DNA of 38,193 nucleotides, taken from the NCBI GenBank assembly GCA_002282715.1, contig NCKC01000031.1:18618-56810 (forward strand). The letters run 5' to 3'. Positions within the stretch are counted from its first letter, which is position 1; every line of letters starts with the position of its first letter. Shown in pieces: positions 3,102-24,389 of this stretch. The translations under genes and the position numbers were made by a program. The notes beneath the pieces were generated by a model, which was given only the letters and a program-made list of their open reading frames with translations, did no database searches and was not told the DNA's origin. The DNA comes from Halothiobacillus sp. 15-55-196. GTDB lineage: Bacteria > Pseudomonadota > Gammaproteobacteria > Halothiobacillales > Halothiobacillaceae.

Positions 3102-3153
3102 AAATCGCAGATGACCGGCATCTGGCTGATGGGTTTTGGCTGGATTTGCCGTA

Positions 3154-3468
3154 AGGAACCTCTGATCAAATCCCTCGTGCTACGCGAAGCTGGCGAAGCC
3201 CGCCGAGTTGCTGATCCAAAAGCCGCAAAACGAGGCAGAGGCCGAAGGTCGTAGTTTACGCTACGATGCCAAGGCCGATAACGAAGTGTTGCGGCCCATG
3301 TTAAATAGATAAGGGGCGGCAACCCGCATGGGACAAGCTTTTGAGGGCGATTTTACGCGGAGCTGGCGTAAGCCCGCTGTGTTGCGCCGCTCACGAATGG
3401 AATAACCATTAACGCGGGCTTGCGCCTGCTTCGCATCTCGGCAACGAAGGATTCAATCAGAGGTTCCT
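3154..3468 (+). repeat. Family 1 MITE-like repeat, copy B
   Basis: The left end reads AAGGAACCTCTGAT and the right end reads GGATTCAATCAGAGGTTCCT, an imperfect terminal inverted repeat. TA lies immediately outside both ends (3152-3153 and 3469-3470), as expected for target duplication by IS630/Tc1-mariner-type transposases. The first ~140 nt are almost identical to copy C at 22384. Copy B carries about 60 extra nt in the middle, including CCCATG and CATGGG as an inverted pair. A short frame is open through the left part but closes at a TAA near 3310, and it has no recognisable product. Confidence 0.85.
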
Positions 3469-3559
3469 TAACGCTTTTTGTTGTAGGCGCGATATACCTT
3501 TTTCCATAATTACGTCTATCTTCTTAAAGGAATCTATAACTCTTTTGGGAGACGTATCG

Positions 3560-3766
3560 ATGAAGAGTATTAAGACATTGACTGTGCTGGGTTTGGTTTT
3601 AGTCAGCTTGTCTGGGTGTGCGAACATGACACCCCGCGAGCGCAACACGGCCATCGGGGCAGGGGTTGGCGCCATCGGCGGGTCGATCCTGACGAATGGC
3701 AATGCTCTGGGTACCGTTGGAGGCGCTGCCGTAGGTGGTTTGGTGGGCAATCAAATCAAGCACTGA
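3560..3766 (+). CDS. Small glycine-zipper lipoprotein (OsmB-like)
   Basis: The 68-residue product starts with a lipoprotein signal peptide ending in LSGC, with the lipidated Cys at position 20. It then has a short polar segment and a run of glycine-rich zipper repeats (GAGVGAIGG and GGAAVGGLVG). Such glycine-zipper mini-lipoproteins, including OsmB, sit in the outer membrane and are often induced by stress; the precise role is unknown. The ATG at 3560 is chosen over an upstream TTG because GGGAGA lies 7 nt before it. TTGTAG and CATAAT, about 18 nt apart around 3480-3509, could be a promoter, which would start just outside the family 1 element. Confidence 0.8.
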   Translation: MKSIKTLTVLGLVLVSLSGCANMTPRERNTAIGAGVGAIGGSILTNGNALGTVGGAAVGGLVGNQIKH

Positions 3767-3938
3767 GAACGATCTACACATGTCGGACCGAGGCGGATCA
3801 CTACTCTAGGTCCTCAATTTGAGGTCGTAGCGACACGACTTGATTGAATCGAACAACCTCCGTTTATTGGTAAGTATCCAAAACTGGTTATTTGCCAATG
3901 ATTATTTACGGGTAACTGTCCAATGGAACAATCTGATG

Positions 3939-3959
3939 TCCTGTTGTCAGGATGTTTTT
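3939..3959 (+). terminator. Weak stem-loop with T-run
   Basis: TCCTG-TTGT-CAGGA is followed by TGTTTTT. The stem is only 5 bp and overlaps the end of the minus-strand gene at 3947. It could end transcription from the lipoprotein gene, but it is weak. The preceding 170 nt hold only a small palindrome (CCTCAATTTGAGG, 3812-3824). Confidence 0.3.
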
Positions 3960-5476
3960 GCCCGGGCAATATCGGCGATTTGGCCCGCAAAGGACGTATC
4001 GCACCGCAAGCGGTAAGTATAGGCGTGTTCGGCGGCAGTCAGCGGCTGAAGCTTCTGTAGTTGTGCTTCGAGCACTTCCTCATCCGCTTCCGAAATATCC
4101 CCGCCCTGAGCGGCGCGTTCGCGCAGATAGCGACGCAACGTAGGCGCATCGCATTCGATGAACAAAATATGGAATGGGAATTCGAGGGTTTGGGCCAGTT
4201 GCTCGAACAACGCACGATGCTCAGCACGCAGAAACGTGGCATCGATAATCATTGGCCAACCGGCGTTCAATCCAGTTGTTGCGATATCGATCAAGTGGTT
4301 ATAAACGTACTTGGTTGCCTCCGGTGTATAGCGCATGGCGCGTTCAGGGAAATGACGCAGCCGCTCGGCATCCGAGCGCACTCGTACCGCGCCCAATGAT
4401 TGCACCAGCTCCATCGCCGCCAGTGATTTGCCACTGCCGGAAAAGCCGACTGTAATCCAGAGTGATGCCTCGGTCGGTGCCAAGAATTGTTCGGCCAGAT
4501 CGGCATAACGGCGGAAGATAGCCCACTGTTCGGCCTGCTCATCGGCGCCCATATCGGGGCGAATGCCGAACAAGGCGATTTTCGCACGCACCATCGCTCG
4601 ATAAGCCGCATAGAAGCGAATGAGCGGCAGCGCTTCATAGTCGCCGCTGGATTCGAGATAGATGCTCAGCAAACGACGCGCGGCGCCGTAAAACTGTCGA
4701 TCGGTCAGATCCATCAGCAGGAACGCCAGATCGTTGGCCGTATCGCTCCAGCGGAAGTCTTCGTTGAACTCGATCCCATCGAAAATCATCACCTTGCCAT
4801 TGATTCGGGCAATATTGCCCAAATGCATATCGCCGTGCCCCTCACGCACGTGGCCGGAATTCTTGCGCGCCGCGATGGTGGGCTTGAGCGCCAGAAAGGC
4901 CGCTTCGCTTGCTGTCTCGATGCGATCGATCTGGGTTTGATCAGCATCATTGGTTAAAAAGCCGCGAATCTGCTCGAAATTCTGATTAATGGGGAAATAC
5001 ACCGTTTCAGGTGTGCCGAAGCGGCTGTCCTTCGGCGCGATGGCTGCATTCTGGTGGAATTGATCGATCTGCCGGGCCAGATCGTCGATCAAGGCATCGT
5101 CCAAACCGTGCGTCTGGGCATAGTTATCCAGACGGTCGCTTTGATCGAAACGGCGCATATGCACCACAGGTTCGGTTTGCGTGTTGGTCGTTTCCACCAG
5201 TCGTCCATCCGCATCGAGCCCGACCACGCCCAGATATAGATCGGGCGCAAGCCGCCGGTTCAGGCGGATTTCCTCATTGCAGAAGAATCGCCGCTGGTCG
5301 CGGTCGGTGAAATCAAGAAAGCCGAAATCCATGGGTTTTTTGATCTTGTACGCGTGCGGTCCGGCCAGCAACACATGGGAAATATGGGTTTGCAAATGCA
5401 CGACCTCGCCATATTGATCATGCAGATAGCGTTTGAATTGTTCCAGAGGTAGCGCTTTTTTAACGGGGGTATTCAT
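3947..5476 (-). CDS. Kinase-like (APH-type) and P-loop ATPase fusion protein
   Basis: The 509-residue protein joins two domains. Residues ~1-330 form an aminoglycoside-phosphotransferase-like kinase fold, with a Brenner-type catalytic motif H214-G-D216-x-H-x-x-N221 and the metal-binding D233 in IFDGIEF. Residues ~338-509 form a P-loop kinase/ATPase domain, with GFSGSGKS at 344-351. Proteins with this layout are usually named bifunctional aminoglycoside phosphotransferase/ATP-binding proteins, and their substrate is not established; drug resistance should not be inferred. The ATG at 5476 has AAGGAA 10 nt upstream. It is the only minus-strand gene in this part of the window and has no obvious partner. 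Confidence 0.8.
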   Translation of the reverse strand: MNTPVKKALPLEQFKRYLHDQYGEVVHLQTHISHVLLAGPHAYKIKKPMDFGFLDFTDRDQRRFFCNEEIRLNRRLAPDLYLGVVGLDADGRLVETTNTQTEPVVHMRRFDQSDRLDNYAQTHGLDDALIDDLARQIDQFHQNAAIAPKDSRFGTPETVYFPINQNFEQIRGFLTNDADQTQIDRIETASEAAFLALKPTIAARKNSGHVREGHGDMHLGNIARINGKVMIFDGIEFNEDFRWSDTANDLAFLLMDLTDRQFYGAARRLLSIYLESSGDYEALPLIRFYAAYRAMVRAKIALFGIRPDMGADEQAEQWAIFRRYADLAEQFLAPTEASLWITVGFSGSGKSLAAMELVQSLGAVRVRSDAERLRHFPERAMRYTPEATKYVYNHLIDIATTGLNAGWPMIIDATFLRAEHRALFEQLAQTLEFPFHILFIECDAPTLRRYLRERAAQGGDISEADEEVLEAQLQKLQPLTAAEHAYTYRLRCDTSFAGQIADIARAKTS

Positions 5477-5544
5477 AACAATTTATTCCTTGACGAAATC
5501 TTTACATCCAAAAACATCCGGGTAACAGGCGTTTGAATCAGCGC

Positions 5545-5627
5545 GGGCAAATCGAAAAACCTATGTATGACCGACGCATTTGGGCCTAAGGCATACCAAT
5601 CAACGCGTACGGTTTTTCGAGGCACCC
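5545..5627. repeat. Family 2 inverted-repeat element, short copy
   Basis: GGGCAAATCGAAAAACC (5545-5561) and GGTTTTTCGAGGCACCC (5611-5627) form 17-nt inverted ends, 13 of 17 complementary. The 49-nt interior has no coding potential. The element occupies the presumed leader of the PBP1b gene and ends 3 nt before the likely start codon. Confidence 0.65.
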
Positions 5628-5630
5628 TTC

Positions 5631-8123
5631 ATGCCAGATGCTGTTAAACTGGTCTCTAATTATGGTTCTAGTGTATCAGTGTGGGTGAGCCCGGTGGCGC
5701 AAACAAAAAAATCAGCTCGACCAACCCAAAAATCCCCAGCCCGTAAAGGTTCTAACGGTAAAAAACCAGCCGACAAAAGCACTTCGAATGGCGCGCGTGT
5801 GGGTCGTTTCAGCCTGCGTGGTCTTCTCTGGCGCATCATTATTATCGCTGTACTGATTCTCACCGCGCTGATGAGCATCTGGGCGTATTTTCTGAATCAA
5901 CGCGTCGTCGATCGCTTTTCCGGCACGCTCTGGAAGCTGCCCGCCACGGTTTATGCCGCGCCGCAGGAAATTTATGTCGGCCAGCATCTCTCGCCTGGCG
6001 AACTGGTGGATGAACTCACCAATCTGCATTATCGCGACCGCGACACACTCACCGAAACCGGCACCTATGATCGAGTCGGTAACGAAATCCGCCTGCACCG
6101 CAGGGCATTCGATTTCCCGGACGGCAACGAACCAGACAGACAGATTCGGGTTCAATTCGTCGGCGACCAGGTCAAGGCTGTCAATGACGACAAGGGTACC
6201 AGCCTCGGCATCATTCGTTTGGAACCGATGACGATCGGACATCTTTACCCGGATATCAATGAAGATCGCGTGCTGCTCAATGTCGAACAGGTACAAAAAG
6301 ACGCCCCACTACTGATCAAAACGCTCATCACGGTCGAGGACCGGGATTTCTATCATCATCACGGCGTGGTGCCGAGCGCCGTATTGCGCGCGCTCTTGGT
6401 CAATATTGTCAGCGGTCATAAAGTGCAAGGCGGCAGCACCATCACCCAGCAACTGGCCAAAAATCTTTTCCTCACGCCCAAGCGCACCTACAAGCGCAAG
6501 CTAGAAGAGATGATCATGGCGCTGGAAATGGAATGGCATTATTCCAAGGACAAGATCCTCGAAGGCTATTTGAACGAGGTCTATCTGGGCCAGGACGGTA
6601 GCCGCGCCATTCACGGCTTTGGCTTGGCCGCACGTTATTATTTCGGCCGACCGGTCGACGAACTGCGGCCCGAGGAGATTGCCCTGCTCGTCGGCATGGT
6701 CAAGGGCGCATCGTACTACAACCCCCGACGCAACCCTGAACGCGCCAAGGATCGTCGCGATACGGTGATCGACCTGATGGCGGACAACGGTCTGATCACT
6801 CCGACCGAAGCGGGCGAACTCAAACAAAAACCACTGGGCGTGCTCAAGGAAAAAGGTACGACCTCACCGCATCCCGCGTTTCTGGATCTGGTGCAGCGGC
6901 AACTGTCGCAACAATACAATCCGGAAGACCTCAAAACCAAAGGGTTACGCATTTTCACTACCATGCAGCCGCGTGTACAGGCCGCGCTGGAGCACTCGGT
7001 CACAGCACTGAATGCGATTGAAAAAGCCCGTCATTACAAGCCCGACTCCCTGGAAACCGCGGGCATCATCACCTCGATCGGCACAGGTGAAGTCGAAGCA
7101 TTGATCGGCGGGCGCGATCCCGCTTATGAGGGCTACAACCGGGCACTGGATGCCCAACGACAGATCGGCTCGCTGATCAAACCCACCATCTACCTGACAG
7201 CGCTCTCCGATCCGGCCAGGTACTCGCTGATCACGCCACTCGACGACAGCCCCTTGACTGTCGATCAGCCCGGCTCAAAACCCTGGAAACCGGAAAACTA
7301 TGACCGTAAATTCCTCGGGCCCACACCGCTCTATACCGATCTGGCCGAATCGCGCAACGTGCCGAGCATCCGTCTTGGTTTGAGCGTCGGCTTGGATAAC
7401 GTATCAGCCATGTTGCACCGACTGGGCGGGCCGGAAATCAAGCCGTTTTATCCATCGATGCTGCTCGGCTCGATGACGATGAGCCCGTTCAATGTCGCAC
7501 AAATTTTCCAAACGCTCTCCTCCGATGGCTTCTACAGCCCGTTGCGCGCCATTCGCAGTGTGGTGGATGCTGAGGGCAAGCCCCTGTCACGCTACCCGCT
7601 GACCGTCAAGAAGGTGGCAGATCCCGATGCGCTTTATCTGCTGCAATACGCCATGCAGGGTGTGGTGAATAACGGCACGGCGCACGCCTTGAACCGCACC
7701 ATCCCGCCGTCAGTAGGCGTAGCAGGCAAGACCGGCACCACCAACGACAGCCGGGATGCCTGGTTTGCCGGCTTTACCGGCAATCGCGTGGGTGTTGTCT
7801 GGGTCGGCCGGGATGACGACAAACCCACCAGTCTGACCGGTGCCAGTGGCGCCTTGCCAATGTGGGCCGCGGCATTCAAACCGCTGTATAACAAGCCACG
7901 GGACATGACGCCGCCCAAAGGCATCGATTTCGTCAATGTCGATGTGGCGCAGCAGGCGCGCGTACCCAGTCAGTGTCCCGGAGTCCTGATGCCATTCGTG
8001 AGCGGCTTCGAACCCAAGACTGTTCTTGATTGCACTGGCGATGCGACCGGTTCGGGGAACACCGATCAGGGCGTAGGAAAAAAAGGTAATCCGCTCAACC
8101 CGATTTTGAATTTTTTCCGATAG
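5631..8123 (+). CDS. mrcB: Penicillin-binding protein 1B (class A, bifunctional)
   Basis: This inner-membrane enzyme polymerises lipid II and cross-links peptidoglycan. A cytoplasmic basic tail is followed by one membrane helix (around LLWRIIIIAVLILTALM), then a UB2H-like domain typical of PBP1B. The family 51 glycosyltransferase has its catalytic Glu at 236 in TVEDRDFY, and GGSTITQQLAKN follows. The transpeptidase has the nucleophile S514 in GSLIKP, an SRN motif, and K700 in GKTGT (numbering from 5631). The product is about 830 residues, usual for the family. The start is uncertain: the frame is open from 5580 within the family 2 element, ATG 5631 is just outside it, and GTG codons at 5679, 5685 and 5694 are also possible. 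Confidence 0.95.
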   Translation: MPDAVKLVSNYGSSVSVWVSPVAQTKKSARPTQKSPARKGSNGKKPADKSTSNGARVGRFSLRGLLWRIIIIAVLILTALMSIWAYFLNQRVVDRFSGTLWKLPATVYAAPQEIYVGQHLSPGELVDELTNLHYRDRDTLTETGTYDRVGNEIRLHRRAFDFPDGNEPDRQIRVQFVGDQVKAVNDDKGTSLGIIRLEPMTIGHLYPDINEDRVLLNVEQVQKDAPLLIKTLITVEDRDFYHHHGVVPSAVLRALLVNIVSGHKVQGGSTITQQLAKNLFLTPKRTYKRKLEEMIMALEMEWHYSKDKILEGYLNEVYLGQDGSRAIHGFGLAARYYFGRPVDELRPEEIALLVGMVKGASYYNPRRNPERAKDRRDTVIDLMADNGLITPTEAGELKQKPLGVLKEKGTTSPHPAFLDLVQRQLSQQYNPEDLKTKGLRIFTTMQPRVQAALEHSVTALNAIEKARHYKPDSLETAGIITSIGTGEVEALIGGRDPAYEGYNRALDAQRQIGSLIKPTIYLTALSDPARYSLITPLDDSPLTVDQPGSKPWKPENYDRKFLGPTPLYTDLAESRNVPSIRLGLSVGLDNVSAMLHRLGGPEIKPFYPSMLLGSMTMSPFNVAQIFQTLSSDGFYSPLRAIRSVVDAEGKPLSRYPLTVKKVADPDALYLLQYAMQGVVNNGTAHALNRTIPPSVGVAGKTGTTNDSRDAWFAGFTGNRVGVVWVGRDDDKPTSLTGASGALPMWAAAFKPLYNKPRDMTPPKGIDFVNVDVAQQARVPSQCPGVLMPFVSGFEPKTVLDCTGDATGSGNTDQGVGKKGNPLNPILNFFR

Positions 8124-8138
8124 CGAGGTAAGACAAAC

Positions 8139-8265
8139 GGGCACCTCGAAAAACCGTCACGGGCTATCGCCAGCTTCGCGTTACGCGGCAATCGGACGGC
8201 GGGCTGCCGCCAGCTTAATGCGAAGCAGGCGCAAGCCCGCGTTCAGTTGGTTTTTCGAGGCGTCC
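8139..8265. repeat. Family 2 inverted-repeat element with 4-bp flanks
   Basis: GGGCACCTCGAAAAACC (8139-8155) and GGTTTTTCGAGGCGTCC (8249-8265) match as inverted repeats at 15 of 17 positions. AAAC directly abuts both ends (8135-8138 and 8266-8269), a possible target duplication. The interior contains 26 nt (8218-8243) identical, in inverted orientation, to 3411-3436 of family 1 copy B, and 15 nt (8167-8181) inverted to 3182-3196. No protein is encoded. Confidence 0.75.
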
Positions 8266-8333
8266 AAACTTAGCTATCGGCATGCACTGACTATTGATCG
8301 CAACAACACCCAGGAAACACTCAGGAAACACAC

Positions 8334-8930
8334 ATGCCGACCACAATGCAGACAAGATACCAAGCCCACACACTCAAAATGGGTGCCGTCACCCTTCTAG
8401 CCATCACCGTTGCGATGCTCTCGGGTTGCGCCAGCACGCCGCCACCGCGCCCGAGCATGGTCATCAAGCAACCCCCTGTTCCGCCCTCGGTGCAGGCACA
8501 CCCGCTGAACATCCCCCGATTGCAGGAACAAACGCTGCCGCGGACGAATAGCAATACGACACCCAACACACCATCCCAAGCCGCCCCGACAGCCAGCACT
8601 CCAGCTGTTCTCGCACTGGTATCCCGCGCCGAGACACAAACGCAGTCCGGTGATTTTGGCGGGGCCGAGGCCACGCTGGAACGTGCAGTCCAGATTCAAC
8701 CGCACAACGCCCGACTCTGGCTCGATTTCGCCCAACTGCGCCTGGCCCAGAAAAAACCCGCACAGGCCGAACAATTCGCCCTTCGTGCCGTGCAATACGC
8801 TCAAAGCAATCGGGAAGTCAGTGCAGCCTGGCAGATGGTCGCCAAGACCCGCGAGGCGCAGGGTGATACCAAAGGTGCCGCCGAAGCCCGCCGCAAGGCC
8901 GGTTTCGTGCCCGATCAGACTCAACGCTGA
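8334..8930 (+). CDS. TPR-containing lipoprotein
   Basis: The 198-residue product has a lipoprotein signal ending in LSGC with Cys at 32. A Pro/Thr/Asn-rich linker spans roughly 35-85. A tetratricopeptide-like helical region follows (~88-190), recognisable by repeats such as SGDFGGAEATLERAVQIQP and AQAEQFALRAV. It is probably a periplasmic scaffold anchored to the outer membrane. Its position between PBP1b and yoaA suggests, but does not prove, a role in envelope assembly. AGGAAACAC occurs twice just upstream, the second placed correctly for the ATG at 8334. A second ATG at 8346 is possible. Confidence 0.75.
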   Translation: MPTTMQTRYQAHTLKMGAVTLLAITVAMLSGCASTPPPRPSMVIKQPPVPPSVQAHPLNIPRLQEQTLPRTNSNTTPNTPSQAAPTASTPAVLALVSRAETQTQSGDFGGAEATLERAVQIQPHNARLWLDFAQLRLAQKKPAQAEQFALRAVQYAQSNREVSAAWQMVAKTREAQGDTKGAAEARRKAGFVPDQTQR

Positions 8931-8988
8931 TGAACGAAGAAAAAACGCGCTGGCTCAAGGCCCCGCGTACCCTTCGAGGATAAATCCT

Positions 8989-10956
8989 GTGAACACGGAA
9001 TCGGCAGACACACTGTCCACGACACCCGCGCCTTCAAAGCCCGGCACGCTGCAGGACGTCTTTGGTCAAAGCGGGGTGCTTGCTGCAGCGTTTAGTGGTT
9101 ATCAGCCGCGCGCGGGCCAGTTACAAATGGCCGAGATCATCCGCGACGCCATCGCCGATTCGCGCACGGTCGTGATCGAGGCAGGCACCGGGGTGGGCAA
9201 GACCTTCGGCTATCTCGCCCCGATTCTGCTCGCCGGACGCAAGGCGATCGTGTCCACCGGCACCAAGCATTTGCAGGATCAGATTTTTAGCCGCGACTTG
9301 CCGCAAATCAAGCAACTGATGGGTTCGACCACACGCACGGCACTGCTCAAAGGCCGCTCGAACTACCTGTGTCTGCACCGACTGGAACGCGCGATGAGCG
9401 AAGGTCGGCTCAAAAGCCCGGACTGGGTCACGGCGCTGCACACCATCTATGGCTGGAGCACACGCACACGCGACGGCGATATTGCCCGTTGCGATGCTGT
9501 CAGCGAAGAACATGGCATCTGGCCGCTCGTAACCTCCACCAATGAAAACTGTCTGGGCAAGGAATGCCCCGTCTTCGACGATTGCTTTGTGGTCAAGGCA
9601 CGCGAGGCAGCGCACGAGGCGGATCTGGTGGTCATCAATCATCACCTGTTCTGCGCCGATATTGCCATTCGCCAAAGCGGCTTTGCACAACTGTTACCTG
9701 AAGCGGATGTGGTGGTCTTGGATGAAGCCCATCAACTGCCGGAAATCGCCAGTCTGTTTTTCGGCTCGGCCCTCAGCAGCGGGCAGATGATCGATCTGTT
9801 GCGTGATATCGTGCGCGAGCAACAGGCCGAGGCGGTGGATATGACCGACCTGCTCGGTGTGCTGCATCAATTCGAATTAGCCATCGATCCCTGCGTTTCG
9901 GCGCTGAAAAATGCCCGCACCGACCGCATTGCCTGGCTGGAACTGCGTGAGGATAAAACCATTCAAGCGGCTTTCGATACGCTCGAAACCCGACTGGCCG
10001 ACCTGACCGCCGCGCTGGAAATCGCCGCGCCGCGAGGCAAGGGCCTGGCCAGTTGCCATGAACGCGCCATACAAATGCGCCAGTGGCTGTCGCATTTTCG
10101 CCGCAGCGAGGAAATCACAACCGAAGTCCGCTGGCTGGAACGCCGCGAGAAATCCTTCACGCTCAATATCACGCCGATGGATGCGGGTAAAACTTTCTCC
10201 GATGTGGTTGAAAGCCAGCCGCGTGCGTGGGTGTTTGCATCAGCCACGCTTGCCGCCGGTTCTGATTTTTCCCACTTCACCCGACGCTTGAATTTGAATC
10301 TCGCGCTGTGCCAGCAAACGCCCTCGCCGTTCGATTACCCGAATCAGGCGTTGATGTATCTGCCGCCCAATCCGCCCGACCCCAAAACCGATCCGGACTA
10401 CACGCTCAAGATTCTGCGTGCCGTGTTCCCGGTACTCAAGGCCAGCGGCGGGCGGGCCTTTTTGCTGTTCACCAGCCATCGAGAGCTGAAGAAGGCCGCC
10501 GATATTCTCGAAGGCAAACTACCTTTCCCGCTGTTCGTACAAGGCACGCAGGCCAAGGCGGCCTTGCTCGAACAATTCCGGCAATCGGGCAATGGCGTGT
10601 TGCTCGGCACGCAGAGTTTCTGGGAGGGCGTGGATGTACGCGGTGAGGCCTTGTCGGTCGTGATGATCGATCGCATCCCGTTCGCCTCGCCCGATGACCC
10701 GGTCCGCCGCGCTCGCGAGGCGCAAATCAAGGAATCGGGTCATTCACCATTCGCGGCCATGGCCTTGCCCGAAGCCATTATCACCTTCAAGCAGGGCGTT
10801 GGCCGGTTGATTCGTGATGTGACCGACCGCGGCGTGCTCGTGCTGTGTGATCCGCGCCTGCAACGCACCGGCTTCGGTCGACAAATACTGGATGCCCTCC
10901 CCCCCATGCGGCGTACGCAAAACATTGGCGAGATTCAGTCATTTTTTGAACAGTAG
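8989..10956 (+). CDS. yoaA: Iron-sulfur DNA helicase, DinG/XPD family (YoaA type)
   Basis: YoaA-type enzymes are ATP-dependent 5'-3' helicases of superfamily 2 linked to replication repair. The 655-residue product has Walker A AGTGVGKT with K71 and a DEAH box at 245-248. Four cysteines (C128, C188, C193, C199) lie at the positions that bind the 4Fe-4S cluster in this family. The C-terminal helicase motifs include GTQSFWEGVDVRG and QGVGRLIRD. The open frame extends back into the TPR gene, but GTG at 8989 is chosen because AGGA lies 8 nt upstream and residues after it fit the family length (E. coli YoaA is 636). It follows the TPR lipoprotein by 58 nt and is probably co-transcribed. Confidence 0.93.
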   Translation: MNTESADTLSTTPAPSKPGTLQDVFGQSGVLAAAFSGYQPRAGQLQMAEIIRDAIADSRTVVIEAGTGVGKTFGYLAPILLAGRKAIVSTGTKHLQDQIFSRDLPQIKQLMGSTTRTALLKGRSNYLCLHRLERAMSEGRLKSPDWVTALHTIYGWSTRTRDGDIARCDAVSEEHGIWPLVTSTNENCLGKECPVFDDCFVVKAREAAHEADLVVINHHLFCADIAIRQSGFAQLLPEADVVVLDEAHQLPEIASLFFGSALSSGQMIDLLRDIVREQQAEAVDMTDLLGVLHQFELAIDPCVSALKNARTDRIAWLELREDKTIQAAFDTLETRLADLTAALEIAAPRGKGLASCHERAIQMRQWLSHFRRSEEITTEVRWLERREKSFTLNITPMDAGKTFSDVVESQPRAWVFASATLAAGSDFSHFTRRLNLNLALCQQTPSPFDYPNQALMYLPPNPPDPKTDPDYTLKILRAVFPVLKASGGRAFLLFTSHRELKKAADILEGKLPFPLFVQGTQAKAALLEQFRQSGNGVLLGTQSFWEGVDVRGEALSVVMIDRIPFASPDDPVRRAREAQIKESGHSPFAAMALPEAIITFKQGVGRLIRDVTDRGVLVLCDPRLQRTGFGRQILDALPPMRRTQNIGEIQSFFEQ

Positions 10957-11049
10957 GCGCTCCCCCTTTGGAAAAGAGGAACGTGTATGAATTAGGGTGA
11001 CATTGTATTCACGCAGATACGGGCACACGCCCATCTTGCGCTATCATTT

Positions 11050-11067
11050 CAATGACTTATGTCATTG
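11050..11067. promoter_or_regulatory. 18-bp palindrome upstream of folD
   Basis: CAATGAC-TTAT-GTCATTG is a perfect inverted repeat with 7-bp arms around an A/T-rich centre. It could be a regulator-binding site, but no matching known operator is recognised. Confidence 0.3.
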
Positions 11068-11093
11068 ATCAGCAGGGAATCCGTGCCCTGCAC

Positions 11094-11123
11094 GGGAAGG
11101 TCTGCATTTGTGCAGACCTTCCC
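11094..11123. repeat. Strong hairpin upstream of folD
   Basis: GGGAAGGTCTGCA, a TTTG loop and TGCAGACCTTCCC form a perfect 13-bp stem. No T-run follows on either strand, so intrinsic termination is doubtful, though it could protect the 3' end of the yoaA message. Its core recurs at 102-125. Confidence 0.6.
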
Positions 11124-11231
11124 TGAGTAATATGAGCTCATACACAAAATTGAGTATATCAGTGGCTTCATGCGACAATTCAGACCCCGTTTTCCCCATG
11201 GCATCCAGCCAACCCACAGGGCACAAACCAC

Positions 11232-12092
11232 ATGACGGCACACATACTGGATGGTCGAGCGTTATCGGCCTCGCTGCAAACCGCATTCGCAGAAGAAATC
11301 ACCGCCGCTGCATCCAAGGGTATTCGCCCGCCGGGGCTTGCCGTGATTCAGGTGGGCGTTGACCCCGCATCCAGCGTCTATGTGGCGAACAAGCGCAAAA
11401 CCTGCGAAAAAATCGGCATGTATTCCGTTTCCAAGGATCTTGCCGCAGACATCTCCCAAGCCGAACTGAACGCACTGGTCGATCAGTACAACGCCGATCC
11501 GGCCATTGATGGCATTCTGGTTCAGCTTCCGCTGCCCGCCCATCTCAGTGCTGCAGAAATCATCGAGCGCATTCACCCAAGCAAGGATGTCGATGGCTTT
11601 CACCCGGAGAATATCGGCAAACTCGCGATTCGCCAACCGGCGCTGCGCCCCTGCACGCCCTTTGGTGTGATGAAGCTGCTCGAAACAGCAAAGGTGGATT
11701 TATACGGCATGGAAGCGGTCGTCGTGGGCGCCTCCAACATCGTCGGCCGCCCCATGGCGCTGGAACTGCTGCTGGCAGGCGCGACCGTCACCGTGACCCA
11801 CCGTTTCACCCGTGATCTTGAGGCGCATGTGCGCCGCGCGGATTTGCTCGTCGTCGCGGCAGGCAAGCCCGGTTTGGTGCGTGGCGACTGGATCAAGCCC
11901 GGCGCGATCGTCGTCGATGTCGGCATTCACCGACAAGAAGACGGCAGACTGTGCGGTGATGTCGATTTTGCCGCTGCCGCCGAACGCGCTGCGTGGATCA
12001 CACCGGTGCCCGGTGGTGTCGGCCCCATGACCATCGCCATGCTGATGCACAACACCGTGCAATCCTGGCGCGAGCGGGTGGCCTGCTCTTGA
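11232..12092 (+). CDS. folD: Methylenetetrahydrofolate dehydrogenase / cyclohydrolase
   Basis: FolD interconverts 5,10-methylene-, methenyl- and 10-formyl-tetrahydrofolate using NADP, supplying one-carbon units. The 286-residue product has the family length. Visible signatures are YVANKRK with the catalytic Lys at 54, [22 protein letters not shown], the Rossmann-type [15 protein letters not shown], and the C-terminal [10 protein letters not shown]. The ATG at 11232 gives the expected N-terminus. Its stop codon overlaps the start of the RNase T gene. This places a folate enzyme about 2.4 kb from metE, which uses a folate methyl donor, but the two are not in one operon. Confidence 0.97.
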
Positions 12093-12829
12093 GTAATCAA
12101 AGCTTGAGTGGCCCGAACCCTGTGCAACAGGACACGCCCGACTTCACCGAGATTGCCACGGCGCTCACCACATCCAAAAAAAACGACTGGAACATCGCGC
12201 GACGCTTTCGTGGCTTTATGCCAGTGGTCGTCGATGTTGAAACCGGTGGTTTGAATCCACAAACCGATGCCCTGCTCGAACTGGCCGCCGTGCTGCTGGA
12301 TGTCGATGCCAACGGCAAGATCATTCCTGTCGATCGCATCCAGATTCATGTGCAACCGTTTGCGGGGGCAAACCTCAACCCCACGTCGATGAAAATAAAC
12401 GGCATCGATATCAATCATCCGTTTCGCGGCGCGGTGGACGAAACCGAAGCGCTCAAAGAATTTTTCCAGCCGATTCGTCAGCGCGTCAAAATGAACGGCG
12501 CACGGCGGGCGGTGCTGGTCGGCCACAATGCGGCATTCGACCTCGCAGTCATCAACGCCGCCTGTGAACGCACGGGAAATAAAAAGAATCCATTCCACCC
12601 CTTCTCGACCTTCGACACCGTGACCCTATCGGCACTGGCCGTCGGTGAAACGGTGCTCGCCAAAGCGCTGGAGGCAATCGGCCTGGAATGGGACAGCCAA
12701 CAGGCCCACGGTGCACTCTACGATGCCGAACAAACCGCCGAGCTGTTCTGCCGCATCGTCAACAACTTCTCCACCAGCAGCGGCCGCGCCGCCATGCGCA
12801 CGCCGAACCCGGTCAATCCCACAAAATAA
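12089..12829 (+). CDS. rnt: Ribonuclease T (DEDD exonuclease)
   Basis: RNase T trims the 3' ends of tRNA and other stable RNAs. Exo I is seen as VVVDVETGG with D49 and E51, Exo II as [15 protein letters not shown], and Exo III as [14 protein letters not shown]. The family-specific [13 protein letters not shown] is also present. A TTG at 12089 overlaps the folD stop (TTGA), giving 246 residues. That is about 30 longer than the E. coli enzyme, with a non-conserved head before RFRGF. Later starts (GTG 12122 or even ATG 12219) are possible, though the last would cut into the conserved head. The overlap suggests translational coupling to folD. Confidence 0.9.
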
Positions 12830-12958
12830 CGGCCACACGATTGATGAACTAAGCTCTTATCTGGATTGTTCCTGCATCCAAAGGGCGCTGTTCTTCGTAC
12901 ATACCTGCGTCCATGCCCGTCTCTTAGTGCGTTCGTTTTATTCTTATGGATAGTTTTG

Positions 12959-13876
12959 ATGAAAAAACCCTGGTGGTCTGTACTGATTATTCTATCGCTC
13001 TCATTTGGTCTGCAGGGTTGCTCCGGGGTGACCATACTTAACACCTTATCGCCGCGCGATGGTGTGCAGGTGACCCGCTCGATTCTGTTTGATCGCCAGC
13101 ATCAATTAAAATTGGATGTTTACCAACCGACAAATGCGCATGCGGCACCGGTGATCGTGTTTTTCTGGGGCGGTCGGTGGGAAGATGGTGATAAGTCGAT
13201 GTATCGTTTCGTGGGCGCAGAGCTTGCCAGCAAAGGCTTTGTCGTGGTCATCCCCAATTATCGGCTGTATCCCGAAGTCACTTTCCCGGCCTTTGTGAAC
13301 GACTCGGCCAAAGCCGTGGCGTGGACCCACGAACACATCAGCCAGTACGGTGGCAGTACCAGCAAAATCGTGCTGATGGGGCATTCCGCCGGTGCCTACA
13401 ATGCGGCGATGTTGGCTCTGGACCCGGCTTACCTTCATGCCGTGGGTGGTTCGCGTCAATGGATTCGGGGCATGATCGGCCTGGGCGGCCCGTATGATTT
13501 CCTGCCCTTGGTCGAGCCCGACCTCAAAGCCATTTTCGGCCCACCCAGCCAATACCCCGTCACCCAGCCCATTCACTGGGCAGATGGCAGCAACCCACCC
13601 ATGCTGCTGATCGAGAGCCGTGCCGACACGATCGTCTACCCGAAAAACACCCGTAATCTATATGCCAAAATCAAGGAGAACGGTGGGCCGGTCGAAAAAT
13701 TCATGGTGGATGATTTAAGCCATCCCATGCTGATCGGCGTGGTTTCCAATGTGCTGTCGTCTCAATCGCCTATCTTGCAAAAAATCGTCTCGTTTGCAGA
13801 TCGCGTGACATCGGAAAACCAGGTACACCAAGGCGATGGATCATCCGATCCGCTCGCTGTTACGGTTCATCCTTGA
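12959..13876 (+). CDS. Alpha/beta-hydrolase lipoprotein (esterase-like)
   Basis: The 305-residue product has a lipoprotein signal with Cys at 21 (LQGC). An alpha/beta hydrolase of the carboxylesterase/formamidase type follows. The nucleophile elbow is GHSAGAY with S143, the likely acid is the Asp in ESRADTIVYP, and the likely base is the His in DDLSHPM. The oxyanion segment reads VFFWGGRWEDG instead of the usual HGGG, keeping the two glycines but not the His. It is probably an envelope-anchored esterase; the substrate is unknown. ATG 12959 is chosen because it begins the signal peptide, although the ribosome site is weak. It follows rnt after 129 nt with no recognised feature. Confidence 0.75.
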   Translation: MKKPWWSVLIILSLSFGLQGCSGVTILNTLSPRDGVQVTRSILFDRQHQLKLDVYQPTNAHAAPVIVFFWGGRWEDGDKSMYRFVGAELASKGFVVVIPNYRLYPEVTFPAFVNDSAKAVAWTHEHISQYGGSTSKIVLMGHSAGAYNAAMLALDPAYLHAVGGSRQWIRGMIGLGGPYDFLPLVEPDLKAIFGPPSQYPVTQPIHWADGSNPPMLLIESRADTIVYPKNTRNLYAKIKENGGPVEKFMVDDLSHPMLIGVVSNVLSSQSPILQKIVSFADRVTSENQVHQGDGSSDPLAVTVHP

Positions 13877-13962
13877 TGATGATTTTGCGTGTTTTGAGTG
13901 GGCCGCAGACATCTGAATACAAAAGGCTGTCTACCGAATATAGAACGGCCAAAAAATCGACT

Positions 13963-14313
13963 TTAAAGCAAGTTCACACCAAAACGTCGCATCACCAGCG
14001 CAAACACCCCGAAAATCACCATGGTCAGAACAATGCAGACGATGAGTGTCGGCCAGAAACCGATGCGCTGCAACAAGGCTGGGAAAACCAGAAACATCGG
14101 CAAGGTCGGAATCACATACCAGAAGGTATACCAGGCGTGATTGGCGATTTTTTCTTCGGACTGCTGCCCGACATGCAGCCAGATCAAGGCCATGATGGTC
14201 ACCAGCGGTAACGCGCCGAGCAAGCCGCCGAGCTTGTCACTGCGTTTGGCCATTTCGGATACAAGAATGATCACCCCGGCCGTGACCAGATACTTCGTTA
14301 TCAACCAACCCAT
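13963..14313 (-). CDS. DUF3147-type inner-membrane protein
   Basis: The 116-residue protein has four predicted membrane helices (~2-20, 28-46, 60-80, 86-108). The segment SEMAKRSDKLGGLLGALPLVTIMALIW is typical of the DUF3147 family, whose function is not known. An upstream ATG at 14385 is in frame, but ATG 14313 is preferred because GGAG lies 8 nt before it and it matches the usual family start. The gene converges on the esterase gene and diverges from metE. Confidence 0.75.
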   Translation of the reverse strand: MGWLITKYLVTAGVIILVSEMAKRSDKLGGLLGALPLVTIMALIWLHVGQQSEEKIANHAWYTFWYVIPTLPMFLVFPALLQRIGFWPTLIVCIVLTMVIFGVFALVMRRFGVNLL

Positions 14314-14447
14314 TTCAAACACTCCATAACCTGTTGTGAATGATCCGAAGACAAACAGTCCGATTGACTGGCTCGCAGACTTCATGCTTTGAATTCATCA
14401 TTTAATACAAATATCATCAACCAAAATCATTTTTAGTTCACGTATCG

Positions 14448-14460
14448 TGAATATCGTTAA
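14448..14460 (+). promoter_or_regulatory. Candidate MetR box upstream of metE
   Basis: TGAA-TATCG-TTAA matches the MetR consensus TGAANNNNNTTCA at all but one fixed position, 30 nt before the metE start. It overlaps a separate perfect palindrome, TTCACG-TAT-CGTGAA (14437-14451). No metR gene is in the window; the LysR gene at 20565 does not look like MetR. Confidence 0.4.
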
Positions 14461-14490
14461 TCATACACGCCACTTTACGGAATTAATGAC

Positions 14491-16776
14491 ATGAGTACTT
14501 CATCTAACATCACCACACATACCCTGGGGTTTCCCCGCATTGGCGAACGCCGCGCACTCAAGTGGGCACTGGAATCGCACTGGCGGGGCGAATCGTCTGC
14601 CCAAGCGCTGCAAGCGACCGCAAAAAGCGTGCGCGCGCAAACATTTCACGCCCACAAAGAGGCTGGTATCACCCATCCGCCCGTCGGCGACTTTTCATTT
14701 TACGACCACATGGCCGACACCGCCCTGTTGTTCGGGCAAGTGCCACACCGGTTCGGCAGCACGGCCAACACGCTGGAGAACCTGTTCACCCTCGGGCGCG
14801 GCAAAAATGTCGCTGGGCAGAACATCGCCCCGCTGGCGATGAAAAAATGGTTCAACAGCAACTATCACTACCTGGTTCCGGAGCTGGAGGCGGATCAGCC
14901 CATCGCGCTGGATACCGCACGCTATCTTGATCTCGTGCGCGAGGCGTTGGCGGCGAATCCGGCGGCCAAGCCTGTTCTGGTCGGTCCGCTGACCTTCCTC
15001 TATCTGAGCCGCGGTCTGGATGAAGCCGGCAGGCTCGCCAAGGCCGAAGCGCTGGCCGCCGGGTATCAATTGCTATTGAACGATCTCAAAGCCCTCGGTG
15101 TTGCCTGGGTGCAAATCGACGAGCCCATTTTGACACTTGATCTGCCTGCTGACTGGCTGCAAGCCTTCGAACCGACCTATCACCGCCTGAAAGTACCCGG
15201 CATCAAGCTGCTCTTGACGACTTATTTCGGCGATTTGAACGGCAATGTGACGCTCGCCGCCAATCTGCCGGTGGATGGCCTGCACATTGATGCGACGATG
15301 ACGCGCGATCTGATTGCCGTGGCCGACCGCCTGCCGGATTACAAAGTGCTTTCCGTCGGCATTCTCGATGGGCGCTCGATCTGGCGTGCCGATCTGACGC
15401 CTATGTTGCAGCGATTGGCGCCCGTGTATGCCCGCCTGAAGGAACGCCTGTGGCTCGCCCCGTCCTGCTCCTTGCTGCATCTTCCGCTGGACGCCACCTT
15501 CGAGACAAAACTCCCGGAGTTTCTGCGCAATAACTTAAGCTATGCCCGACAAAAACTCACCGAACTGAATCTGCTGGCCAGAGGACTGAGCGACGGTTGG
15601 GACAGCATCGCCCTGGAACTCAATCAGGCGGCTTCGGCCCGCGCCGAACTCGACCGCCAGCCGGGTCGCAATTCATCCACCGTGCGGGCCAAGACAGAGG
15701 CGATTGCCGCAACCGAGCCTAACCGCAGTGAAGCGTTCGCAGCGCGTGCCGCGGCACAGCAGGCACGTTTCAACCTGCCGCTGCTGCCGACCACGACCAT
15801 CGGTTCTTTCCCGCAGACACATGAAATCCGTGCGGCACGCAAGGCCTTCAAGAACCGGGAACTTTCCGAGGAACAATACGAATCCAGCATGAAGGCTGAA
15901 ATCTGCCATGTGATCGAGACTCAGGAAAAGATTGGTCTGGATGTGCTGGTGCATGGCGAAGCCGAACGCAACGACATGGTCGAATACTTCGGCGAGCAGC
16001 TCGATGGCTTTGCCTTCACCCAGGAAGGCTGGGTGCAGTCCTACGGTTCGCGTTGCGTCAAACCGCCCATTATCTGGGGCGATGTGCAACGCAGCCGCCC
16101 GATGACGGTAGCGTGGGCACGCTATGCACAATCACTGAGCCAGCGCCCGGTCAAGGGCATGTTGACCGGCCCGGTGACGATTCTGTTCTGGTCGTTCGTG
16201 CGCGATGATCTTTCCCGCGAGGCCGTGTGCTACCAGATTGCCGAGGCATTACGACAGGAGATCAACGATCTGGCTGACGCAGGTATCGGCATGATTCAGG
16301 TCGATGAACCCGCGTTCCGCGAGGGTTTGCCGCTGCGCAAAAAAGATTGGAGCGTCTACCTCGCCTGGGCCGTGCGGTCCTTCAAGCACGCCGTGGCGGA
16401 TGCGCCGAAAGACGTCCAGATCCATACCCACATGTGTTACAGCGAATTCAATGACATCATCGAAGCGATTGCCGCGCTGGATGCGGACGTGATCACCATC
16501 GAAACCACGCGTTCGAACATGAAACTGCTGGATGCCTTTTCGGACTTCCACTACCCCAATGCCATCGGGCCCGGTATCTACGATATTCATGCGCCGCAGA
16601 TTCCGACTGTGGAAGAGATCGAACCGCGCGTTCGACTCGCACTGGAAAAAATTCCGGCCGAACGTTTATGGATCAACCCCGATTGCGGCCTGAAAACCCG
16701 CACCTGGGCGGAAGTGATCCCTTCTCTGGAGGCCATGGTTGCGGTGGCCCGCAAATTGAGAAAAGAACTCGGCTGA
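14491..16776 (+). CDS. metE: Cobalamin-independent methionine synthase
   Basis: MetE transfers a methyl group from 5-methyltetrahydropteroyl-polyglutamate to homocysteine, the last step of methionine synthesis. The 761-residue product has the duplicated-barrel layout. The N-terminal half begins TLGFPRIGERRALKWALE, and the C-terminal half begins TTTIGSFPQTHEIR. The zinc ligands H647 and C649 (in HTHMCYSEF), E671 and C732 (in NPDCGLKTRTW) are all present, offset by six from E. coli. The ATG at 14491 gives the standard N-terminus. A strong terminator follows within 25 nt, so the gene is monocistronic. Confidence 0.98.
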   Translation: MSTSSNITTHTLGFPRIGERRALKWALESHWRGESSAQALQATAKSVRAQTFHAHKEAGITHPPVGDFSFYDHMADTALLFGQVPHRFGSTANTLENLFTLGRGKNVAGQNIAPLAMKKWFNSNYHYLVPELEADQPIALDTARYLDLVREALAANPAAKPVLVGPLTFLYLSRGLDEAGRLAKAEALAAGYQLLLNDLKALGVAWVQIDEPILTLDLPADWLQAFEPTYHRLKVPGIKLLLTTYFGDLNGNVTLAANLPVDGLHIDATMTRDLIAVADRLPDYKVLSVGILDGRSIWRADLTPMLQRLAPVYARLKERLWLAPSCSLLHLPLDATFETKLPEFLRNNLSYARQKLTELNLLARGLSDGWDSIALELNQAASARAELDRQPGRNSSTVRAKTEAIAATEPNRSEAFAARAAAQQARFNLPLLPTTTIGSFPQTHEIRAARKAFKNRELSEEQYESSMKAEICHVIETQEKIGLDVLVHGEAERNDMVEYFGEQLDGFAFTQEGWVQSYGSRCVKPPIIWGDVQRSRPMTVAWARYAQSLSQRPVKGMLTGPVTILFWSFVRDDLSREAVCYQIAEALRQEINDLADAGIGMIQVDEPAFREGLPLRKKDWSVYLAWAVRSFKHAVADAPKDVQIHTHMCYSEFNDIIEAIAALDADVITIETTRSNMKLLDAFSDFHYPNAIGPGIYDIHAPQIPTVEEIEPRVRLALEKIPAERLWINPDCGLKTRTWAEVIPSLEAMVAVARKLRKELG

Positions 16777-21753: not shown

Positions 21754-22221
21754 ATGCGAGGCTCAAGGAAAATAGCATTGATTGCATTAACAGCCGCGGC
21801 GACAGTCATGTTTTCCGCAGCCAGTCTGGCTGATGGCTCTACCCAGATATATAAATGGGTCGACAAAAACGGCGAAACGCATTTCAGCCAACTCCCACCG
21901 AAACAGGGCGAAGCCCAGATCGTCAACCCGGACTACGCCACCTCCGGCAACAATGAGGATACTCAGGCCGCACCTGCTGAAAAATCCGGGGATAAAAACA
22001 AGAAACCCTTGACACCAGACCAGCCCGTTTTGGCAATTAATAAAAAAGAAGCGGCAAAGGCCTGCGAAGCAGCAAACGCTCAAATCAAAATGCTGCAGGA
22101 TACACAAAACCAACTGATGACTCAGGATGCTGACGGCAAATACCGGCCACTAACATCAGAAGAAATCGCAACCCGTCTGAAACAGGCGCAGGATGTGGCC
22201 AACAAGGCCTGTGTCAAATAA
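21754..22221 (+). CDS. Secreted DUF4124-domain protein
   Basis: The 155-residue product has a signal peptide, probably cut after ASLA near residue 26. A DUF4124 segment follows (IYKWVDKNGETHFSQLPP, ~31-48). The rest is a Lys/Ala-rich, probably helical tail that includes two cysteines. DUF4124 proteins are common periplasmic proteins of unknown function in proteobacteria. The ATG at 21754 has AAGGGA about 10 nt before it. It appears monocistronic, with its own promoter and a small terminator. Confidence 0.8.
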   Translation: MRGSRKIALIALTAAATVMFSAASLADGSTQIYKWVDKNGETHFSQLPPKQGEAQIVNPDYATSGNNEDTQAAPAEKSGDKNKKPLTPDQPVLAINKKEAAKACEAANAQIKMLQDTQNQLMTQDADGKYRPLTSEEIATRLKQAQDVANKACVK

Positions 22222-22229
22222 TATCTCTG

Positions 22230-22250
22230 CGGCTCTTCCGGGCCGTTTTC
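22230..22250 (+). terminator. Intrinsic terminator after DUF4124 gene
   Basis: CGGCTC-TTCC-GGGCCG, a 6-bp stem including one G-T pair, is followed by TTTTC, 8 nt after the stop codon. Confidence 0.6.
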
Positions 22251-22383
22251 CTTCCAATCTCAAGGCTGTTCAAAAACAGAGATAATTAGGCAAACGCTCA
22301 TAAGCCCACAGGCGTGGGCTATCCAGACGCAATCCCCCGGCAATATTCGGCAAATCATGTCAAAATACTGTGTTTACAACCTA

Positions 22384-22621
22384 AGGAACCTCTGATTGAA
22401 TCCCTCGTGCTACGCGAAGCTGGCGAAGCGCGCCGAGTTGCTGATCCAAAAGCCGCAAAACGAGGCAGAGGCCGCAGGTCGTAGTTTACGCTACGATGCC
22501 AAGGCCGATAACGAAGTGTTGCGGCTTTTGCGGAGCTGGCGCAAGCCCGTTTCGCGCCGCGCCTTGCGACTCATCCCTCAAAAGCCCGTCTCGGCCACGA
22601 AGGATTCAATCAGAGGTTCCC
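22384..22621 (+). repeat. Family 1 MITE-like repeat, copy C
   Basis: The left end AAGGAACCTCTGATTGAATCC and the right end GGATTCAATCAGAGGTTCC form a near-perfect 19-bp inverted repeat. TA flanks both sides (22382-22383 and 22622-22623). Its first ~140 nt match copy B, and the segment GCGGAGCTGGCGCAAGCCCG and right end also match, but the ~60-nt middle insert of copy B is missing. A frame is open across the whole element, without a recognised product. It ends 74 nt before the proS start. Confidence 0.9.
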
Positions 22622-22695
22622 TAAATAACGCCGTAGTCTCTCACACCCGATAGGCGCAAGCGGCACGCCCCCGAATCTTTTGAGACCAAGCCCAT

Positions 22696-24389
22696 ATGCG
22701 CAGTTCGCAATTCACGCTAAACACCCTGAAAGAAACACCGACCGAAGCAGAGATCGTCAGCCATCAATTGATGCTGCGTGCTGGCATGATCCGGCGATTG
22801 TCTTCGGGTTTATACACCTGGAGCCCGCTTGGGCTGCGTGTCTTGCGCAAAGTGGAAGCGGTCGTTCGCGAGGAAATGGAGCGCATTGGCGCGCTGGAAC
22901 TGCTGATGCCCGCCATTTGTGGCAGGAATCCGGCCGCTGGCAGAAATACGGCCCGGAATTGCTGCGCGTCAAAGATCGCCATGATCGCGAGTTCTGCGTC
23001 GGCCCCACGCACGAAGAAGTCATCACCGATTACGCCCGTCGGGAGCTCAAAAGCTACCGCCAGTTGCCGATCTGCTACTATCAGATCCAAACCAAATTCC
23101 GCGATGAGATTCGTCCGCGTTTTGGCGTGATGCGCGCCCGCGAGTTCATCATGAAAGATGCCTACTCCTTCCATGCCGATGTCGAATCGCTCAAGGCCAC
23201 CTATCAAGCCATGTATGACGCCTATTCGCGCATTTTCACCCGATTGGGGCTGAAATTTCGCGCGGTGGAAGCCGACACCGGCTCGATTGGCGGCAATGGC
23301 TCGCATGAATTTCATGTGCTGGCCGATTCCGGCGAGGACGCGATTGCCTACGCCACCCAAGGCGATTACGCGGCGAATGTCGAAATGGCGCCCACCTTCC
23401 CCGCTAAATCGGGCCGCGCCCCGGCCACGGCCAGCTTGATGCGTGTCGCCACACCCGGCGCCAAAACCATCGACGAAGTGGCCGCCTTCTTGGGCGTACC
23501 CAGCAACCGGATTCTCAAAACCCTGCTCGTGCGTGGGCGGGAAACGCCTGTCGTCGCCGTTGTGCTGCGCGGCGACCACGAATTGAACGACATCAAGGCA
23601 GCCAAACATCCGCTGATCGCCGATCCGTTTGAGTTTATCCCGCCAGCGGAAGCGTTTACCCATACGGGGGCGAATGTCGGCTCCATCGGCCCGATCGATT
23701 TGAACATGCCCGTCATCGCCGACTTTGCGGCGGCTGACTGCGCGGATTTTGTCTGCGGCGCCAACGAAGATGGCTGGCATCTGACCGGCGTGAACTGGGG
23801 ACGCGACTTGCCCGAGCCGCAAACCGCCGACTTGCGCAATGCCGTCGAAGGCGATCCGGCACCCGATGGTCAGAGCGTTCTTGCCATAGCCCGAGGCATC
23901 GAAGTCGGTCATGTATTCCAGTTGGGCACCACCTACAGCGAGAAAATGCACTGCGAATTCCTGGACGAAGCGGGCAAACCCGCCACCGCCATCATGGGCT
24001 GCTATGGCATTGGTGTTTCCCGCATCGTGGCTGCCGCCATCGAGCAAAATCACGATGAAAACGGCATTGTCTGGCCGGTGCCGCTCGCGCCATTCGCCAT
24101 TGCCATCATCCCCATCAACGGCCACCGCGCGCCCGCAGTTCAAGCCGAAGCCGAGCGGCTGGAAGCCGAACTCACCACCCAAGGCTTCAGCGTACTGCTC
24201 GACGATCGCGGCCTGCGCCCCGGTGTTGCGTTTGCCGACATGGAACTCATCGGCATCCCCTTACGCATCGTGGTGAGCGAGCGCGGGCTGGCCGCGGGTG
24301 AATTTGAGATCCGCCTGCGATGGGAAAGTGAGAACAAGAGCATCGCCGCCGACCAGGTGCTCGACTGGGTCAGCCAGAACTTGAAATAA
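22696..24389 (+). pseudogene. proS: Prolyl-tRNA synthetase with broken reading frame
   Basis: ProS charges tRNA-Pro. The frame starting at ATG 22696 gives a standard bacterial ProS N-terminus ([21 protein letters not shown]) and ends its match at MPA (codon ending 22914). The rest continues in another frame from 22917 ([17 protein letters not shown]). It includes motif 2 ([17 protein letters not shown]), a YbaK-like editing insertion around [22 protein letters not shown], and motif 3 ([11 protein letters not shown]). E. coli has five residues (VQPAD) between the two parts; here there are only two bases, so about 13 nt are missing. The remainder is intact and undegraded. It is either a recent lesion, with another proS elsewhere, or an assembly error. 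Confidence 0.9.

Follow-up and report, generated by a model that had tools for sequence, protein, structure and literature searches.

The proS gene of Halothiobacillus sp. 15-55-196 is spread over two reading frames in the draft genome of this strain (G000), and the locus raises the question of whether the gene is broken in the living cell or in the assembly. proS is normally essential. The draft consists of 2,297,135 bases in 146 contigs and has a completeness rating of 99.46%. The window, which is the whole stretch of DNA analyzed (38,193 nucleotides), corresponds to positions 18618-56810 of contig C20. The named relatives closest to the G000 proS were mostly Halothiobacillus records. At the DNA level the gene was 93% identical to that of G001 and 85% identical to that of G009, a single-contig genome of 2,582,886 bases. 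As far as titles and the openings of abstracts tell, the literature contains no test of whether proS is essential in this genus.

The 13-nt gap in the reading frame

The N-terminal part of proS (MRSSQF...LLMPAI) occupies positions 22696-22917 of the forward strand, comprises 74 codons, and shows 98.6% identity to the first 74 residues of the nearest relative. The original prediction had ended this part at MPA (22914), and was correct up to that residue; the frame runs one residue further, to MPAI, with ATT at 22915-22917 as its last codon. The C-terminal part (LWQES...QNLK) lies on the same strand in a second frame, at 22917-24389, with its stop codon at 24387-24389. Its 490 residues contain the remainder of the class II core, the editing domain, and the anticodon-binding domain. 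The class II core is thus not covered by one continuous frame, which confirmed the break across two frames that had been proposed. A mechanical open reading frame (ORF) of 569 aa, at 22680-24389 on the forward strand, fuses a wrong-frame N-terminus to the true C-terminal part and might be reported by a gene caller.

The start of the gene was aligned with those of nine other genomes of the genus. The alignment showed a single clean gap of 13 nt at the junction (22917-22918, forward strand), which was found in G000 only; all nine relatives keep the 13 nt, so the proposed loss of this size was borne out. Most relatives read MPA-IQPAE-LWQES at this place, and G002 reads MPA-VQPAE; the residues VQPAD given earlier were slightly off. 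The codons for Q, P, A, and E plus one base were lost from the G000 gene.

The comparison was extended to 110 proS loci, made up of sets of 30 and 80 with some genomes counted in both. In every one of these loci a single-frame match crossed the place of the gap ungapped, and the Q and P of MPxxQPxxLW, which are missing in G000, were present without exception. At the protein level, QP..LW was found in 119 of the 120 relatives listed (the best 120 of the 8000 candidates scored), the exception being an N-terminally truncated fragment of 392 aa. A protein search with the C-terminal part gave a best relative that was 91% identical among the matches listed, and none of the clusters among the matches listed was led by the source strain.

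The break falls in the motif 1 region of class II synthetases. The T run at the junction is only three bases long (22916-22918), so the gap is not a homopolymer slip. No direct repeat at the gap ends was seen by eye in the alignment relative to G001; a repeat of 1 to 3 nt would exist had the lost codons differed in spelling from those of G001. A clean gap without a direct repeat, relative to G001, is not the usual result of repeat collapse, and this counts against an artefact. The size of the loss had been held to be untypical of sequencing slips. This argument is sound for slips of 1 nt, but it does not exclude an assembly error. Errors of 1 nt are probably the commoner ones among assembly-error pseudogenes, and the G000 proS differs from these in lacking 13 nt.

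The remaining gene and the search for a second synthetase

The C-terminal part scored 626.2 bits against the TIGR00409 profile (cut-off 306.7), and PF00587, PF04073, and PF03129 (core, editing, and anticodon-binding) all exceeded their cut-offs within it. The 74-residue N-terminal part alone matched no Pfam family. No further stop codon or frame change was found in the C-terminal part, in agreement with the earlier description of the rest of the gene as undegraded. The order and content of the core, editing, and anticodon-binding domains are the same as in the bacterial-type ProS (TIGR00409; class II with an editing domain), relatives of which have solved structures (among them 5ucm and 8w8j, found with the G001 protein). 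In contrast, the 13 missing nt, the lost QPAE, and the broken frame set G000 apart from this type, and they recur in none of the 110 loci of the comparison. A scan of positions 22200-22720 for promoters upstream of the gene found none.

We also analyzed selection on the C-terminal part by the Nei-Gojobori method. The dN/dS ratio was 0.087 for G000/G001, 0.083 for G001/G009, and 0.076 for G000/G009. Arithmetic on these pairs gave the G000 branch a dN of about 0.016 and a dS of about 0.216, a ratio of about 0.07. The G000 part had 12 private residues and that of G001 had six, and the synonymous branch of G000 was also longer. The dN/dS values gave no sign of relaxed selection on the G000 part. 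An old pseudogene was rejected, because no other inactivating change was present and the ratio of 0.087 stood beside 0.083 for G001/G009. Since the rest of the gene showed neither decay nor relaxation, the loss is either very recent or not real; the original choice between a recent event and an artefact stands.

The first of these would be a real 13-nt deletion, carried by the strain or by some cells of a mixed population, that abolished prolyl-tRNA synthetase (ProRS) where it occurred, an intact copy having gone unseen. The absence of relaxed selection is what a very recent deletion would leave. Survivors would then rely on an intact copy in an unreadable short contig or in another cell lineage. 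In profile searches of the readable contigs, TIGR00409 matched both parts of proS and, weakly, contig C94, and TIGR00408, the archaeal/eukaryotic type, matched only the same proS. When the DNA of proS itself was searched against G000, a single match was obtained. The second proS that had been called for, of either type, was thus not found in the readable contigs of G000 by profile or DNA searches. The weak match on C94 was rejected as a second proS, as the relatives give a match of the same kind with a similar frame length; it is most likely serS. None of the nine genus relatives had a second match above the ProS cut-off, which, like the single DNA match, tells against a real deletion. However, 15 of 36 sampled contigs of G000, all those below 3 kb, consist wholly of N, and the searches are blind there, so a second proS of 1.7 kb could hide in such contigs.

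Two further genes were searched for in the same readable contigs. Despite the completeness rating of 99.46%, thrS gave cross-matches only and infC gave no match, while the profiles of both were positive in 10 of 10 bacterial controls. The readable draft is therefore without other normally essential genes as well.

Recoding and split-enzyme alternatives

In principle, ribosomes could join the two frames into one working ProRS that lacks QPAE by -1 frameshifting, either at the junction or ahead of it. This would take a shift of exactly -1, into a frame that is open. In Halothiobacillus neapolitanus, csoS2 is reported to use -1 frameshifting with 50% efficiency (PMC5009743), and the direction is the one that proS would need. 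A heptamer in phase for a -1 slip, GGGTTTA, lies at 22806-22812 on the forward strand, 105 nt before the junction. However, if the ribosome slipped at 22806, about 35 residues would be mistranslated, and we judged this heptamer to be coincidental. At the junction itself no slippery heptamer was found, and the downstream RNA fold was ordinary (z = -0.12; 83 of 200 shuffles were at least as stable). These two features, and the physical absence of codons, distinguish the proS junction from csoS2 (PMC5009743). With the wrong-frame N-terminus as the query, no relative was obtained at E <= 0.001. The codons for QPAE are absent from the DNA, and their Q and P are the residues that did not vary in the wider comparison. 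Recoding across the junction, which had been raised earlier as a way of joining the frames, is thus very improbable.

It is still less credible that the two parts are translated independently and come together as a split ProRS. Each part is undegraded in its own frame, and the C-terminal part opens with TTG (22917-22919), a possible start codon. On the other hand, inspection by eye of the preceding bases, ATGCCCGCCAT, showed no purine-rich ribosome-binding stretch at the usual distance, QPAE would still be missing, and the gene is split at this place in none of the 110 loci. The DNA no longer contains the codons for QPAE, and these would be brought back neither by recoding nor by splitting. 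We also consider it very unlikely that the loss is real and fixed in the strain, with either a QPAE-less ProRS made by -1 recoding at the junction (QP being dispensable) or an enzyme unrecognised by the profiles charging tRNA-Pro.

The assembly around proS

A MITE-like repeat of 243 bp is present upstream of proS at positions 22382-22624, with no strand assigned. Its inverted ends of about 20 nt are GGAACCTCTGATTGAATCC and the reverse complement of this sequence, and CTAA flanks it on both sides (22381-22384 and 22621-22624). CTAA fits YTAR, the target of IS5-group elements. The repeat lies 71 bp upstream of the proS start. One copy of it separates the start of the gene from upstream sequence shared with relatives, and in the nearest relative no repeat is found at this place. 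Repeat matches were found on at least 17 contigs of G000, C20 included (40 of 51 candidates scored); the draft holds at least 70 matches, many of which cover no more than the inverted ends. Further copies are located at about 3152-3471 of the window and at 18517-18715 of C20, and the repeat also occurs in G009. The sole N run of C20 (18614-18617) is inside the latter C20 copy, just before window position 1, and adjoins a short fold-back (CGAATGG..CCATTCG). It looks like a scaffold gap within the repeat, although the Ns could also be withheld bases. As the repeat near proS ends 293 bp before the junction, a causal link between the repeat and the 13-nt gap is only suggestive.

The quality of the assembly was then examined with ORFs from related genomes. 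On contig C20, 34 of 39 ORFs of G009 and 24 of 25 ORFs of G001 had full-length matches; proS was the sole ORF split between frames, and four others were partial in one frame. In a wider sample of 1,103 reference ORFs, 252 had any match; 97 were dropped for identity below 60%, and 155 were kept. Among those kept, 133 were matched at full length, six were at a contig edge, 12 were partial in one frame, and four were flagged. The flagged ORFs were proS, a 185-aa ORF on contig C90, and two ORFs for which contig C55 gave several repeated matches; we judged these two to be repetitive proteins and not frame splits. In a smaller ORF sample proS was the only frame-split gene. An assembly prone to frameshifts as a whole was thus not seen in the sampled part. 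Because the sampled part of the assembly is mostly sound and the proS gap stands alone in it, these data argue somewhat against a careless consensus, and so against an artefact. A clean, isolated gap in an otherwise well-framed sample also agrees with a real deletion.

Two side observations were also made. The 185-aa ORF of G009 matched positions of about 3964-4498 of C90 (L152) in two overlapping frames, plausibly a second frame split. Along C20, identity to G009 was 97% at positions 3502-16521, 88-93% in the pieces that follow, and no more than 66-78% at the end of the window; this mosaic divergence is perhaps the result of recombination.

We also searched for frame-broken proS genes in other assemblies, using as the query the 144-aa frame beginning at 22696, which carries the out-of-frame tail. 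Of the 120 proteins listed, 37 matched the N-terminal part of proS together with the out-of-frame tail, a proportion that gives no rate, because the query selects broken frames. Examples among the 37 are P0145, which belongs to a Salmonella record, and P0155, which lies on a contig of 3.5 Mb. Outside the 37, P0179, from a contig of 4.9 Mb, ends out of frame, and P0131, whose N-terminal part is 96% identical, seems from its protein alone to go out of frame close to its end, near residue 225. P0129 is 97% identical over the N-terminal part and has QPAE intact. The proS fragment P0137, from another assembly, also seems, judged by its protein alone, to be without bases at MP..QPAELW; as the query selects such breaks, this is no basis for the claim of a hotspot. 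These records show that broken reading frames of proS occur in public assemblies, which does not imply that those breaks arose by error. The same frame chimera was not found elsewhere with residues 1-90 of the 569-aa ORF: of 25 candidates none reached E <= 0.001, in a search of clusters at 90% identity, which may hide members. Many putative bacterial pseudogenes are reported to be assembly errors (Cooley and Wright 2024, PMC11017572). The G000 proS resembles such spurious pseudogenes in being a frame-broken gene that would be expected to work, in a draft assembly.

Of the explanations, an assembly or consensus error is the most likely and a real recent deletion the next. We consider it probable that the 13-nt gap is an assembly or consensus error and that the living cell has one ordinary, intact proS of bacterial type. 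The 13 nt would have been dropped in assembly and not in the cell, for example when contigs were closed or joined near the repeat. An error is favoured because the only proS copy found in the readable contigs is that of a normally essential gene, because the nine genus relatives keep the 13 nt and the 110 loci are ungapped at this stretch, and because the gene shows no decay elsewhere. It is further favoured by the fragmentary state of the draft, with its 146 contigs, the failure to find thrS and infC in the readable contigs, and the N run in a repeat copy. The recurrence of frame-broken proS in other assemblies, together with the report on pseudogenes in PMC11017572, points in the same direction. 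The real recent deletion is a distinctly less probable explanation, though one to be taken seriously.

If the gap is an assembly error, the living cell would carry an intact proS, and the draft would hold an essential gene that is broken in frame and that annotation could turn into a pseudogene or a chimeric protein of 569 aa. The case would then show how little can be learned about a cell from the absence of a gene in its draft genome. If the gap is real, either the strain survives although its only known proS is lost, or its ProRS does without residues that do not vary in any of the 110 compared loci.
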